Assembly: GCA_019112985.1 (NCBI GenBank)
Contig: DXIG01000043.1
Location: 1 to 33,666, forward strand
DNA length: 33,666 nucleotides
DNA from: Candidatus Butyricicoccus stercorigallinarum
GTDB taxonomy: Bacteria; Bacillota; Clostridia; Oscillospirales; Butyricicoccaceae
Direction: 5' to 3'
Made by a program: the position numbers and the translations under genes. Shown one piece after another: positions 4,100-24,078 of this stretch; the stretch's first letter is position 1, and each line of letters opens with the position of its first letter. A model generated the notes under the pieces. The model was not told the DNA's origin, made no database searches, and was given only the letters and a program-made list of their open reading frames with translations.

Positions 4100-5023
4100 A
4101 TGTCCCATTTCAACGACCATCTGGACGACATCGTCCGGCAGCTTCAGACCGGCTACCAGTCCAGTGATTTATTTTTCACCCGCGACGGCCTGGAGCGCCC
4201 CAACCGCAACGCCATCATTCAGATTCTGAACGATTTCCGTCAGCTGCTGTTCCCCGGCTATTTCGGCAACGAAAAGCCGACGCGCACCTCCGCCCCCTAT
4301 TTCGCCGGCCATATGCTGACCCGCATCTACGAGGAGCTGTATCCGCAGATCGCGCTGGCGCTCGCCTACCGCGAGGGCGGCTGCACCGAGCGCATCTCGC
4401 TGCGCGCCGAGGAGGCCGCGTCCGAGCTGCTCGGCGAGCTGCCGCGCATTCAGAAGCTGCTGCTCATCGATGTGGAGGCCGCGCTCAACGGCGACCCCGC
4501 CGCGGGCAGCCGCGAGCAGGTCATCTTTTCCTATCCGGGTCTGAACGCCATCTTCGTCCACCGCATCGCCCACGAGCTGTACCTGCGCGATATCCCGTAT
4601 ATCCCGCGCATCATGAGCGAATACGTCCACGGTCTGACCGGCATTGACATCAACTCCGGCGCGACCATCGGCGAATATTTCTTCATCGACCACGGTACCG
4701 GCGTCGTCATCGGCGAGACCACTGTCATCGGCAACAACGTCAAGATCTATCAGGGCGTCACGCTGGGCGCGCTGTCCACCCGCGCCGGACTCAAGCTGGC
4801 GGGCAAAAAACGCCACCCCACCATCGAGGACGACGTCACCATCTACTCCAACGTCTCGATTTTAGGCGGCCAGACCGTCATCGGTCAGGGCTGCACCATC
4901 GGAGGCAGTGCGTTTATCACCTCCTCCATTCCCCCGTTTTCGCGCGTCAGCGTCAAGAACCCCGAGCTGACCGTGGACGATTTCGGCGAAAAGGCCTATG
5001 AGGCGTCGGGCAACCAACCGTGA
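4100..5023 (+). CDS. cysE: Serine O-acetyltransferase (EpsC/CysE type)
   Basis: A 307-residue enzyme making O-acetylserine from serine and acetyl-CoA, the committed step of cysteine synthesis. The start is ATG 4100, 9 bases after TAAGGAG (4084-4090). An in-frame start at 4022 lies upstream of the predicted promoter -10 and lacks a ribosome site. A helical N-terminal domain of about 180 residues is followed by a left-handed beta-helix with hexapeptide repeats (INSGATIGEYFFIDHGTG, VVIGETTVIGNNVKIYQG). DHGTG carries the catalytic Asp-His pair. The length suits the longer EpsC-like clostridial form. Its product feeds CysK, encoded at 14302-15231. It faces an Rrf2 regulator convergently, which may hint at cysteine-responsive control. 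Confidence 0.93.
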   Translation: MSHFNDHLDDIVRQLQTGYQSSDLFFTRDGLERPNRNAIIQILNDFRQLLFPGYFGNEKPTRTSAPYFAGHMLTRIYEELYPQIALALAYREGGCTERISLRAEEAASELLGELPRIQKLLLIDVEAALNGDPAAGSREQVIFSYPGLNAIFVHRIAHELYLRDIPYIPRIMSEYVHGLTGIDINSGATIGEYFFIDHGTGVVIGETTVIGNNVKIYQGVTLGALSTRAGLKLAGKKRHPTIEDDVTIYSNVSILGGQTVIGQGCTIGGSAFITSSIPPFSRVSVKNPELTVDDFGEKAYEASGNQP

Positions 5024-5058
5024 AAAAAGCGGCAGCCGCGCGCCCGCGCCGGCTGCCG
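5023..5058. terminator. Hairpin terminator between cysE and the Rrf2 gene
   Basis: CGGCAGCCG (5030-5038) pairs with CGGCTGCCG (5050-5058). The A-run at 5023-5028 gives a U-run on the minus strand, so it best serves the Rrf2 gene. The plus-strand tail (TTCCTCTG) is weak. Confidence 0.75.
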
Positions 5059-5083
5059 TTCCTCTGTCCATGCAATTGCGTGC

Positions 5084-5518
5084 TCAGATGGAATAAAAAT
5101 CCTCCATCGTCTCGCTGCGCGCGACGAGATCCGCCAGCGTGACGCGGTCCACGACGCCGTTGATCGCGTCGTTGAATTCCTTCCACAGCGTCAGCGTGAC
5201 GCACCGGTCCGCCTTCGGGCAGGTCTCCACGCCCTCCTCCACGCAGGCGACCGGCGCGAGCGAGCCCTCCGTCAGGCGCAGAATGTCCCCCACGGTGTAT
5301 TCCTCCGGCTCTCTGGCCAGACGGTACCCGCCGGACGAACCGCGCACGCTCTTGACAAATCCGGCCTTGGTCAAAATGCCGATGATCTGTTCGAGATACT
5401 TTTCGCTGATGTTCTGACGCTTTGCGATGGTTTTCAGCACGATATTTTCCCCGGTGTCGTGCAGCGCCAGATCGAGCATCAGGCGAAGCGCATACCGGCC
5501 TTTGGTCGAAATTCTCAT
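5084..5518 (-). CDS. Rrf2-family transcriptional regulator with three conserved cysteines
   Basis: A 144-residue DNA-binding regulator. The start is ATG 5516-5518, preceded by an AAGGAGGGGG-type ribosome site; the longer upstream frame has no such site. The N-terminus (MRISTKGRYALRLMLDLA) and the winged helix with the wing SSGGYRLARE (61-70) are typical of Rrf2. Cys92, Cys100 and Cys106 form a C-x7-C-x5-C set in the region where IscR and NsrR bind an Fe-S cluster. CymR-type cysteine regulators usually lack these cysteines. It could sense Fe-S status, redox or sulfur supply. Its neighbour cysE suggests sulfur control, but that is inference from context only. Confidence 0.9.
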   Translation of the reverse strand: MRISTKGRYALRLMLDLALHDTGENIVLKTIAKRQNISEKYLEQIIGILTKAGFVKSVRGSSGGYRLAREPEEYTVGDILRLTEGSLAPVACVEEGVETCPKADRCVTLTLWKEFNDAINGVVDRVTLADLVARSETMEDFYSI

Positions 5519-8553: not shown

Positions 8554-9222
8554 ATGACACAGTTTTCTGTAGCGGAAACCTTCGTCAGCATCAACGGCGA
8601 GGGCGTGCGCGCCGGACAGCTGTCCGTCTTCGTCCGCTTTACCGGCTGCAACCTGCGCTGCTCGTACTGCGACACGCAGTGGGCGAACGACGCGCAGGCG
8701 CCGCACACCGACATGACGGCGGAGCAGATCTGTCAGGCCGTGCGCGAAACCGGCGTGCGCAACGTCACGCTGACCGGCGGCGAGCCGCTGCTGCGCGCGG
8801 GCATGGCCGGGCTGCTGCGGCAGCTGACGGAGGACCCGCAGCGGCGCGTGGAAATCGAGACCAACGGCAGCGTCGATCTCGCGCCGTTTACCGGCATCTC
8901 CCCCGCCATCACGTTTACCATGGACTACAAGCTGCCGGGCAGCGGCATGGAGGCGCACATGCGCACGGACAACTTCGCGCTGCTGACCGCGCGCGACACG
9001 GTCAAATTTGTCGCGGGCAGCCGCGCCGATCTCGACCGCGCGCTGGAGATCATCCGCGGCTACGACCTGACCTCCCGCTGCCATGTCTATCTCAGCCCGG
9101 TGTTCGGGCAGATTGAGCCGGTGGAGCTCGTGGCGTTTTTGCAGGAGCACGCGCTCAACGACGTCACGATGCAGCTCCAGATGCACAAAATCATCTGGGA
9201 CCCCGACCAGCGCGGCGTATGA
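8554..9222 (+). CDS. queE: 7-carboxy-7-deazaguanine synthase (radical SAM)
   Basis: A 222-residue radical SAM enzyme that contracts the ring of 6-carboxytetrahydropterin to 7-carboxy-7-deazaguanine. Cys32, Cys36 and Cys39 (CNLRCSYC) bind the 4Fe-4S cluster. The GGEPLL motif ([11 protein letters not shown]) contacts SAM, and VEIETNGS is the later strand motif. The N-terminal [19 protein letters not shown] is diagnostic of QueE. It starts three bases after the queD stop with GGGGAGG in the end of queD. The last bases overlap an upstream ATG of folE. Confidence 0.95.
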
Positions 9223-9248
9223 GCGCCGCAGAAAGGGAACAAAACAGT

Positions 9249-9827
9249 ATGGCTATTGATACCAACGCAATCAGAGAACATATCCGCGGCATTCTCGTCG
9301 CGCTCGGCGACGACCCCGACCGCGAGGGGCTGAAGGACACGCCCGACCGCGTCGCCCGCATGTACAGCGAGGTGTTCGAGGGCATGAACTACACCAACGA
9401 ACAGATCGCGCACATGTTCGACAAGACGTTTGAAGACGAGATGGATTTCGCCAGTGACTCCAAGGATCTCGTCATCGTGCGCGACATCCAGCTGTTCAGC
9501 TACTGTGAGCACCACATCGCGCTGATGTACGACATGACCGCGACCGTCGCCTATATGCCGAACGGCAAGGTCATCGGCCTGAGCAAAATCGCGCGCATCG
9601 CCGACATGGTCTCCAAGCGCCTGCAATTGCAGGAGCGCATCGGCTCGGACATCGCGCAGATCATGCAGATTGTCACCGGCTCGGAGGACGTCGCCGTGCT
9701 CATCGAGGGCAGCCACAGCTGCATGACGGCGCGCGGCATCCGGCAGGCGAACGCGCGCACCACAACCACCACGCTGCGCGGACGGTTTTGCACCGATTCC
9801 GACCTGCAAATGAGACTGTATCGCTAA
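9249..9827 (+). CDS. folE: GTP cyclohydrolase I
   Basis: A 192-residue enzyme turning GTP into 7,8-dihydroneopterin triphosphate, the entry step for both folate and 7-deazaguanine synthesis. The zinc ligands are Cys86 and His89 (SYCEHH) and Cys158 ([10 protein letters not shown]). LSKIARI and the C-terminal TTTTLRGRF are also typical. I prefer ATG 9249, preceded by AAAGGGA. ATG 9219 overlaps the queE stop but lacks a ribosome site and would add ten atypical residues. Placement inside the que operon means this copy is dedicated at least partly to queuosine precursor supply and is under preQ1 control. Confidence 0.95.
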
Positions 9828-9840
9828 GGAGGACACCCGG

Positions 9841-10530
9841 ATGAAAGCTCTTGTTCTGGCCAGCGGCGGTGTGGACAGCACCACCTGCCTCGGTCTGGCC
9901 GTCGAAAAATACGGGCAGGAAAACGTCGTCGCGCTCGCCATCACCTACGGCCAGCTGCACACGAAGGAAGTGGACGCCGCCCGGCGCATCGCCGCGCACT
10001 ATCAGGTCGAGTTTCTGACGCTCGATCTCGCAAAAATTTTCCAGTACGACACCAAATGCTCGCTGCTTCAGGGCTCGGAGAACGAGATTCCGGAGGAGTC
10101 CTATGCCGAGCAGCTCAAAAAGACCGACGGCAAGCCGGTTTCCACCTATGTGCCGTTCCGCAACGGCCTGTTCCTGTCCTCGGCGGCCAGCATCGCGCTG
10201 TCCAAGGACTGCTCGGTGATCTATTACGGCGCCCACAGCGACGACGCCGCCGGCAACGCCTATCCGGATTGCAGCAGCGCATTCAACAACGCCATGCGCG
10301 ACGCGATCTACATCGGCAGCGGCGGGCAGCTGACCATCGAAGCGCCGTTTGTGCACGCCACGAAGGCGGATGTCGTGCGCGAGGGCCTGCGCCTCGGCGT
10401 GCCCTATGCCCTGACCTGGAGCTGCTACGAGGGCGGGAACCGGCCGTGCGGCAAGTGCGGCACCTGCCGCGACCGCGCGGCGGCATTTGCCGCCAACGGC
10501 GTCACCGACCCCGCGTTACAGGAGGACTGA
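9841..10530 (+). CDS. queC: 7-cyano-7-deazaguanine synthase
   Basis: A 229-residue PP-loop ATPase that turns 7-carboxy-7-deazaguanine plus ammonia into preQ0. The ATP pyrophosphatase loop is SGGVDS (residues 8-13). The zinc site at the C-terminal end is Cys195, Cys203, Cys206 and Cys209 ([16 protein letters not shown]). [13 protein letters not shown] is the family's central motif. It starts 13 bases after folE with a strong AAGGAGG. The length is normal. Confidence 0.97.
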
Positions 10531-10532
10531 CC

Positions 10533-11030
10533 ATGACCGGAAGAACCAGCGAAGAGACGCAGGGCATCTCCCTGCTCGGCAACCAGGGCACGAAATACCG
10601 CGACGATTACGCGCCGGAGGTGCTCGAAACCTTTGTCAACAAGCACCCGGAAAACGACTATTTTGTCAAATTCAACTGCCCGGAATTCACCAGCCTGTGC
10701 CCCATCACCGGACAGCCGGACTTTGCCACCATCACCATCTCCTATGTGCCGTCCGAGCGCATGGTGGAGAGCAAATCGCTCAAGCTGTACCTGTTCAGCT
10801 TCCGCAACCACGGCGATTTCCACGAGGACTGCGTGAACATCATCATGAAAGACCTGATCCGGCTGATGCAGCCCAAATACATCGAGGTCTGGGGCAAGTT
10901 CACGCCGCGCGGCGGCATTTCCATCGATCCCTACTGCAACTACGGCATGCCCGGCACGCGCTGGGAGCAGGTCGCCTGGAACCGCCTGGCAAACCACGAC
11001 CTGTATCCGGAAAAGATCGACAACCGATAA
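10533..11030 (+). CDS. queF: NADPH-dependent 7-cyano-7-deazaguanine reductase
   Basis: A 165-residue unimodular (YkvM-type) QueF reducing preQ0 to preQ1. Catalytic Cys56 lies in CPITGQPDF; the signature ESKSLKLYL spans residues 79-87; His97 and Glu98 follow in HGDFHE. The start ATG 10533 follows AGGAGGA in the end of queC and overlaps no gene. It is the last gene of the operon, and its product preQ1 is the ligand expected to shut the operon off through the leader riboswitch. A bidirectional terminator follows. Confidence 0.96.
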
Positions 11031-22783: not shown

Positions 22784-22809
22784 ATCCACTGCCGCGCGCA
22801 GTGGATTTT
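22784..22809 (+). terminator. Terminator after ldh
   Basis: ATCCACTGC (22784-22792) pairs with GCAGTGGAT (22798-22806) around CGCGC. TTTTC-TTT follows. Confidence 0.85.
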
Positions 22810-22820
22810 CTTTGCCCGCG

Positions 22821-22849
22821 TTGACTTCTTTTGTCGAAATCGCTATACT
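22821..22849 (+). promoter_or_regulatory. Promoter of the AAA_28-CYTH gene
   Basis: -35 TTGACT (22821-22826), 17-base spacer, -10 TATACT (22844-22849). The leader to ATG 22889 is about 33 bases. Confidence 0.78.
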
Positions 22850-22888
22850 GAACATATGGCAACCTGTACACGGGAGGGATATCCTCAC

Positions 22889-24013
22889 ATGAAATCAATC
22901 ACAAAAATCGTCGTCACGGGCGGCCCGTGCGGCGGAAAATCCACCGCCATGACCTGGATTGAGAGCAACCTGACCAAGCGCGGCTACAAAGTCCTGTTTA
23001 TCCCGGAAACCGCATCCGAGCTGATTTTGGGCGGCGTCGCGCCGTGGACGGTCAGCTCCAACTATGAATTTCAAAAAGCGCTCGTCTCGCTGCAAATCCA
23101 GAAGGAGCGCGTGTTTGAAATGGCCGCGCGCAACATGGACGACGAAAAAATCCTGATCGTCGCCGACCGCGGCATTCTGGACAACAAGGCCTATATGACC
23201 GACGAGGAGTTTCACTCGCTGTGCCGCGAGCTGGGCAGCAGCGAGGTCTCGTTCCGCGACACCTACGACGCCGTCTTTCACCTGGTCACGGCGGCGCAGG
23301 GCGCGAGCAAATTCTACACCCTCGCCAACAACCAGGCGCGCACCGAAACGCCCGAACAGGCGATTGAAATGGATCAGAAGCTGATCTCCTGCTGGACGGG
23401 ACACCCGCACCTGCGCGTGATCGACAACTCCACCGACTTCAACACCAAGATGAAGCGGCTGGTCAACGAGATCACCCAGTTTCTCGGCGAGCCGGACCCC
23501 TATGAAATCGAGAGCAAATTCCTCATCCGCATGCCCGATCTCGACAAACTGGAGCGCATGCCGAACTGCAAAAAGGTGGAGATCATCCAGACCTATCTGC
23601 TCAGCAGCGAGCAGAACGTCGAGCAGCGCATCCGGCAGCGCGGGCGCGACGGCAGCTATATCTACATCAAGACCACCAAGACGACCGTCGCCAACGGCAA
23701 GCGCATCGAGACCGAGCAGCGCATCACCAAGGACGAATACCTCGATCTGCTCATGGACGCGGACACCTCGCTGCGGCAGATCCGCAAAAACCGCTACTGC
23801 CTGACGGAAAACAACCTGTATTTTGAAATCGACGTCTATCCGTTCTGGACGCGGCAGGCGCTGCTCGAGGTGCAGCTCAACACGCCGGAGCAGCGCGTGG
23901 TATTCCCCACCTATCTGACCGTTCTGCGCGAAGTCACGGACGACAGCGCATACAAAAATCACAGCCTCGCGCGCAGCATCCCGCCAGAGGAAGACGAAGC
24001 AGAAAATGCATAA
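22889..24013 (+). CDS. Two-domain P-loop NTPase (AAA_28) fused to a CYTH domain
   Basis: A 374-residue cytoplasmic protein. Residues 1-200 are a kinase-like P-loop domain of the AAA_28 type: Walker A GGPCGGKST (11-19), the strand ILIVADRG (88-95) with Asp93-Arg94, and a helical lid. Residues about 204-350 form a CYTH (triphosphate tunnel) domain: EIESK (206-210) is the ExExK signature. Alternating charged strands RIRQRGRDGSYIYIKTTK, KRIETEQRIT and LYFEIDVYPF give the inward-facing Arg/Lys/Glu residues. CYTH enzymes act on triphosphates (PPPi, ThTP, ATP to cAMP), and AAA_28 proteins resemble nucleotide or metabolite kinases. Joined, they suggest making or breaking a phosphorylated compound, but the substrate is unknown. 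I start at ATG 22889 after GGGAGG. It is monocistronic. Confidence 0.85.
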   Translation: MKSITKIVVTGGPCGGKSTAMTWIESNLTKRGYKVLFIPETASELILGGVAPWTVSSNYEFQKALVSLQIQKERVFEMAARNMDDEKILIVADRGILDNKAYMTDEEFHSLCRELGSSEVSFRDTYDAVFHLVTAAQGASKFYTLANNQARTETPEQAIEMDQKLISCWTGHPHLRVIDNSTDFNTKMKRLVNEITQFLGEPDPYEIESKFLIRMPDLDKLERMPNCKKVEIIQTYLLSSEQNVEQRIRQRGRDGSYIYIKTTKTTVANGKRIETEQRITKDEYLDLLMDADTSLRQIRKNRYCLTENNLYFEIDVYPFWTRQALLEVQLNTPEQRVVFPTYLTVLREVTDDSAYKNHSLARSIPPEEDEAENA

Positions 24014-24058
24014 AAAACGACCGGCGGCAGGCGCAAATCTCGCGCACAGCCGCCGGTC
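24012..24058. terminator. Bidirectional terminator between the AAA_28-CYTH gene and rodA
   Basis: GACCGGCGGC (24019-24028) pairs with GCCGCCGGTC (24049-24058). The A-run 24013-24017 supplies a U-run for the minus strand. TTCTCTG-TTC-TTTTTTT lies a little beyond on plus. Confidence 0.85.
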
Positions 24059-24078
24059 TTCTCTGTTCTTTTTTTCGG

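Follow-up and report, generated by a model that had tools for sequence, protein, structure and literature searches.

NadR combines an HTH domain, an NMNAT and a ribosylnicotinamide kinase in one protein, and its kinase domain is of the AAA_28 type. We know of no kinase activity for any AAA_28-CYTH protein, TTD14 having been shown to bind GTP and not to phosphorylate, and the physiological roles of bacterial TTM domains are, to our knowledge, largely open. The domain pairing itself is already known from Drosophila TTD14 (PMC4624897) and the plant TTM1/2 proteins (PMC8233210, PMC8615392). TTD14, a eukaryotic trafficking factor of 475-515 aa, binds GTP and PtdIns(3)P, and its P75L exchange, at the Pro of the GGP Walker A, abolishes GTP binding, which makes this Pro functionally essential (PMC4624897). 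In TTM enzymes, the second Glu of the ExE signature binds metal 2 and is needed for hydrolysis (PMC8233210, PMC4641920), mutation of a metal-site Glu causes a strong drop in activity (PMC4641920), and NeuTTM (NE1496), an inorganic triphosphatase, has been proposed to work via a Tyr28/Lys52 dyad (PMC3440374). A literature search, thin on subscription journals and preprints, returned no paper on bacterial AAA_28-CYTH proteins, on their HTH variant or on the promoter element described below.

The gene studied here lies at 22889..24013 of the window, the whole 33,666-nucleotide stretch of Candidatus Butyricicoccus stercorigallinarum DNA analysed in this work, and it and all its features given below are on the forward strand. 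Its translation is an AAA_28-CYTH fusion of 374 aa with zero internal stops. A sigma-70-type promoter, TTGACT-17-TATACT, occurs at 22821..22849 (one found by the promoter scan versus 0.3 expected), 3′ of the terminator-like hairpin of the upstream gene (22784-22806). Behind the stop codon, at about 24019-24075, a GC-rich hairpin with a T-rich tail resembles a terminator; it was read directly from the sequence, being absent from the list of the hairpin scan owing to its long loop, and it also faces the downstream neighbour, a convergent FtsW/RodA gene. No co-directional partner gene stands beside the fusion gene. Because the gene has its own promoter, a 3′ hairpin with a T-rich tail and a convergent neighbour, we consider it monocistronic, as the preliminary description had stated for a 374-residue protein. 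An alternative ATG at 22856 follows the -10 box by just 7 nt, and 22889 is therefore the likelier translation start. The fusion occurs as a single copy in its own genome, where the search found no second AAA_28 match above the cut-off and the sole further CYTH match lies on another contig (C54). Elsewhere in the window, radical SAM, GTP cyclohydrolase I-type and QueF genes stand in a row at 8554-11030 and likely form a queuosine precursor pathway.

Both domain identities, proposed earlier from the sequence alone, were borne out by Pfam, phmmer, a family profile and structure prediction. The N-terminal half (residues 6-186; 22904..23446) matches the NadR/Ttd14-type family AAA_28 (PF13521, E=5e-23, 82.5 bits versus a cut-off of 27), and this match together with the Walker A and DRG motifs places it in AAA_28. 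The match of the C-terminal half (residues 205-362; 23501..23974) to the CYTH family (PF01928) is borderline, with E=5e-5 and 23.7 bits versus a cut-off of 23.2 over residues 205-301; however, phmmer aligned residues 206-365 with NE1496/NeuTTM (3typ, 2fbl) at E about 1e-6, and a profile built from 68 relatives backs the call as well (E=2e-9). The AlphaFold2 model of the protein is of high confidence (pLDDT 90.6, pTM 0.87), and Foldseek returned NE1496 at the top for the C-terminal half, followed by AtTTM3 and other TTMs (probability 1.00 for TTM structures), and thymidylate kinases and deoxycytidine kinase (TMPK/dCK) for the N-terminal half. With a profile score above the cut-off, the tunnel fold, the ExExK signature, the tunnel Arg and Lys residues and the metal-1 Glu, the C-terminal domain belongs to the CYTH/TTM superfamily.

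The locus shares different features with each of the described systems. It resembles TTD14 in the order of P-loop and CYTH domains, in the GGP Walker A and in a DxG Walker B, a likeness judged by architecture and motif position (PMC4624897). As in plant TTM1/TTM2, a TTM domain follows a P-loop kinase fold, and the Foldseek matches covering both halves included the tandem of Arabidopsis TTM1 (7z67); however, the domain arrangement differs from that of the window model (rmsd 21.5 over the full module), and the plant kinases are of the uridine kinase/PRK type (PF00485), carry W/YxRxR and prefer PPi. As the window kinase is AAA_28 by Pfam and W/YxRxR is absent, we do not assign the protein to the plant TTM1/2 group. 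Among solved structures, NeuTTM (2fbl, 3typ), of the same short TTM type, comes closest to the CYTH half (29% identity), but it is a single-domain protein with ExE where the window protein has ExQ. The likeness to NadR lies in the HTH-bearing relatives described below, in which an XRE-type HTH precedes the AAA_28 kinase and a vitamin-type importer is often encoded alongside; these relatives have CYTH and lack NMNAT, and the window copy lacks the HTH, so the protein is not a NadR. An existing characterised homologue, which the preliminary description had named as grounds for refutation, is found in part, in the shared architecture of TTD14 and the crystal structure of the TTM1 kinase-TTM module, but neither gives a bacterial substrate.

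At the residue level, the kinase half is strongly conserved among the 68 relatives: the Walker A GGPCGGKST (residues 11-19; 22919..22945) is kept in all 68 except for A/G and S/T choices, its GGP Pro and the DRG motif (residues 93-95; 23165..23173; Walker B or kinase DR motif) are invariant in 68/68, and E40, D93-R94-G95 and R151 are invariant or nearly so. In the CYTH half, the ExExK signature EIESK (residues 206-210; 23504..23518) is conserved as E206 in 68/68, E208 in 66/68 and K210 in 67/68, and the tunnel residues R247, R249, K264, E274, E276, R278, R299, K300, R302, E313 and E327 are conserved as well. The window protein has E206, E208, K210, the RxR pair (R247, R249), K264, the RKxR motif (R299, K300, R302) and the metal-1 Glu E327. 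Therefore, of the claim that both signatures are intact, GGPCGGKST and EIESK stand, but the wider CYTH set is incomplete: the ExE signature reads E327-V-Q329 (23867..23875), so that the substrate-binding Arg and Lys residues of the tunnel remain while the metal-2 Glu is a Gln.

This replacement is a trait of the genus, since position 329 is Gln in 7/7 distinct copies examined from it. The second Glu is present in all other fusions examined except one (L115, Asn) and in 12/12 CYTH-only homologues. Within the genus, E208 is changed to Asp in 3/7 copies and K264 to Val in one (L090). The second ExE Glu that marks a catalytic TTM tripolyphosphatase (PMC8233210, PMC4641920) is thus absent from the window protein; however, Y236 and K264, the equivalents of NeuTTM Y28/K52, are both intact, and therefore Gln329 may not abolish hydrolysis. 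Two other TTM assignments were rejected by published sequence criteria (PMC8233210): a ThTPase, as the W/YxRxR motif is absent and E245-x-R-x-R stands in its place, and a class IV adenylyl cyclase, defined by HFxxxxExExK and replacement of the first Arg of RxR, as no HF precedes EIESK and R247 is present. Half-lost versions also occur, namely L115, in which E208, E327 and E329 are replaced by K, K and N and the domain region is retained, and L124 (1162-2085), in which the tunnel with ExE is kept and the Walker A is lost, and they indicate that one activity is not strictly tied to the other.

The CYTH half of the genus has also diverged faster than its kinase half. Among pairs that are not independent of each other, the CYTH/AAA_28 protein-distance ratio was 2.0-4.8 (median 2.6) in the window's genus versus a median of 1.1 elsewhere at matched distance, and CYTH dN was 2.3-4.9 times AAA_28 dN, compared with mostly 0.4-1.8 in other clades and 2.87 in one small-count pair outside the genus. 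With an omega of 0.07-0.22, the CYTH domain of the genus is therefore relaxed yet still under selection. Judged from residues and rates, it may be a weakened or lost hydrolase that is probably ligand-binding.

A survey of the fusion against its separate domains, which had been suggested for this gene, found full-length relatives to be common but patchy in Clostridia. The scan of genome contigs gave 280 relatives, the best 80 of them in Clostridia at 58-85% identity. Within the window's GTDB family, the fusion was confined to the window's genus, 7 of 11 genomes having the fusion and 2 of the same 11 only the kinase half, at about 52% identity. At the level of the order, 43 of 295 genomes matched at E<=1e-15, comprising 11 with the fusion, about 30 with a CYTH protein only and 2 with the kinase half only. 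Farther away, a copy on an actinobacterial plasmid is 37% identical across the whole length, five full-length fusions lie on viral contigs, and another viral contig (L138) carries the two domains in separate, adjacent genes, CYTH (4998-5450) immediately 5′ of AAA_28. Since the halves are found separately, the domains also work, or at least are inherited, apart.

In 37 of 113 fusion loci, upstream in-frame reading revealed an N-terminal XRE-type HTH ahead of AAA_28 (HTH_3 match, E 1e-14 to 5e-17), in L008, L012, L015, L066, L081 and 32 other relatives; the fusion loci share ancestry, so that this count and those of the promoter element and the S component below are not independent. The HTH state changed at least 14 times on a quick tree with several long branches, on which gain and loss are therefore indistinguishable, and the structure model of the HTH form is poor (pLDDT 73.7, pTM 0.52) and was set aside. 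Just 5′ of the -35 box, 31-32 of the 37 HTH-type promoters contain the element TCTACCGnnATTCGAY, mostly 77-86 nt before the start (e.g., L015, L052 and L073). Scored with a 17-position consensus, 31 of the 37 HTH members have it at no more than 5 mismatches, and 26 sites at no more than 3 mismatches compare with 0 in 3,700 shuffled sequences. Outside the HTH set, it was found only in L014 and L094, both with remnants of a broken HTH. Across 32 genomes with the HTH form, the element occurred 26 times, 22 of them ahead of the HTH-AAA_28-CYTH gene, essentially one per genome, and a search of the same genomes for a wider regulon gave 4 hits elsewhere versus 8 for a reversed-pattern control. A hit preceding a KptA-like gene (L173) falls within a reading frame and is regarded as a chance match, and no palindromic dyad shared by the promoters was found.

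A transporter gene accompanies part of these loci. Beside 12 of the 37 HTH members, on one side or the other, lies a gene for the S component of an ECF transporter (PF07155, E=7e-14, above the cut-off; L066:7253-7783, L051, L076, L082, L009, L047, L055, L070, L072, L073, L096 and L113), and none of about 65 fusion loci without the HTH has one; in L051 and L066, the S-component gene stands ahead of a co-directional HTH gene, and the element is found farther upstream, at about 650 nt, before the S-component gene. Against the NCBIfam models for folate and riboflavin, the S component scored below the cut-offs, and these models assign it no substrate. Rfam scans gave no riboswitch beside the S component, the sole match being RNase P in L113, and none in the window. 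No neighbourhood is conserved across all fusion loci, and a neighbour association emerges only once the HTH members are taken separately; three more unnamed families (7, 3 and 3 loci) occur exclusively beside them. One unnamed family found only beside HTH members, of about 200 aa and with an EAEWHxxNSHE motif (L079:2193-2783, homologues beside L008, L046, L060, L071, L112 and L114), has no Pfam match. KptA (L133:6204-6776) and RlaP (L137:3519-4604) genes lie near AAA_28(-CYTH) genes, and ADP-ribosylglycohydrolase genes follow those of L034 (9090-10457) and L131 (6163-6930), a possible RNA-repair or NAD link. The window's own genome contains another PF07155 S component, beside a pyridoxal kinase-like gene (L175, G000:C27) and unrelated to the fusion gene. 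In the window, the fusion gene has neither the HTH nor the promoter element, and no S component adjoins it.

Based on these findings, we propose, with slightly less than even confidence, that the window gene encodes a two-module kinase/sensor, which forms a NadR-like unit in sister Clostridia and consists only of kinase and tunnel in the window. The N-terminal module would be a kinase of the NadR/Ttd14 (AAA_28) type that has a dNK/TMPK-like fold and uses ATP or GTP to phosphorylate a small molecule. Both the S component and the fold of the kinase suggest, indirectly, that this metabolite is probably vitamin- or nucleoside-like. The TTM tunnel may bind a tri- or polyphosphorylated ligand, such as inorganic triphosphate, a nucleoside triphosphate or a product of the kinase pathway. 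Most members of the family retain every tunnel residue that metal-dependent hydrolysis would need; in the window's genus, the metal-2 site is eroded (E329Q in all, E208D in some) and the phosphate-binding residues stay, so the window's tunnel would most likely be a weak hydrolase or a ligand-binding, allosteric domain that regulates the kinase. In sister Clostridia, where its gene often lies next to that of the S component, the XRE HTH protein probably binds the element ahead of its own gene and could thus constitute an autoregulated, NadR-like unit that imports, phosphorylates, senses and regulates. The sensory role may have arisen, or remained, in some lineages only, and for the window copy the regulatory reading is extrapolated from relatives that share about 60% identity with it. 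Of the paired roles suggested earlier, make-and-break is therefore weakened for the window copy by the Gln at the metal-2 position in it and its genus, while sense-and-act gains from the HTH, promoter element and S component of sister lineages, but not from the window copy, which has none of these parts.

A bifunctional housekeeping enzyme, in which the kinase is joined to an active TTM triphosphatase that would proofread metabolites by clearing tripolyphosphate or some over-phosphorylated by-product, and in which E329Q only tunes metal preference, is a possible but doubtful alternative. The TTM residues are conserved family-wide outside the window's genus, the Y236/K264 pair matching the NeuTTM dyad is retained and the closest relative of solved structure is an inorganic triphosphatase; against this, the metal-2 Glu is lost in all copies of the genus, E208 is changed in some and constraint is relaxed, and L115 keeps the domain region without E208, E327 and E329 as L124 keeps the tunnel without Walker A. 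We regard as improbable a GTP-binding switch like TTD14, whose P-loop would bind without phosphate transfer and whose CYTH domain would bind anionic ligands such as phospholipids: the fold and the DRG motif resemble TMPK/dNK kinases, although the domain order and the GGP Walker A, with its Pro in 68/68 relatives, are as in TTD14 and the P75L effect (PMC4624897) fits such a switch. Moreover, the phospholipid binding of TTD14 is ascribed to a PX-like region.

More improbable still is an RNA-repair or NAD/ADP-ribose-linked enzyme, e.g., a kinase acting on RNA ends, ADP-ribose or nicotinamide riboside, to which the AAA_28-type kinase domain of NadR and the single-locus neighbours KptA, RlaP and ADP-ribosylglycohydrolase would point. 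NAD-consuming KptA and RlaP repair systems are present in jumbo phages (PMC7824862); however, these neighbours amount to four loci among more than 100, none stands beside the window gene, and the only widely recurring neighbour families are the four exclusive to HTH members.

The kinase/sensor reading, extended to the whole group, would make the HTH-AAA_28-CYTH proteins undescribed one-protein regulators of gut Clostridia, which phosphorylate a vitamin- or nucleoside-like nutrient delivered by the S component, sense it through the tunnel and control their own operon via TCTACCGnnATTCGAY, with the window's genus as a derived state in which a tunnel hydrolase became a sensor; in this full form, the proposal is tentative and rather unlikely to hold in every part. 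A family in which the TTM domain follows a kinase, and in one third of the loci found also comes with an HTH, a promoter element specific to it and, often, a neighbouring transporter gene, would offer a direct route to the ligand. The ExQ genus, in turn, may serve as a natural test of whether hydrolysis in the tunnel is required for function.
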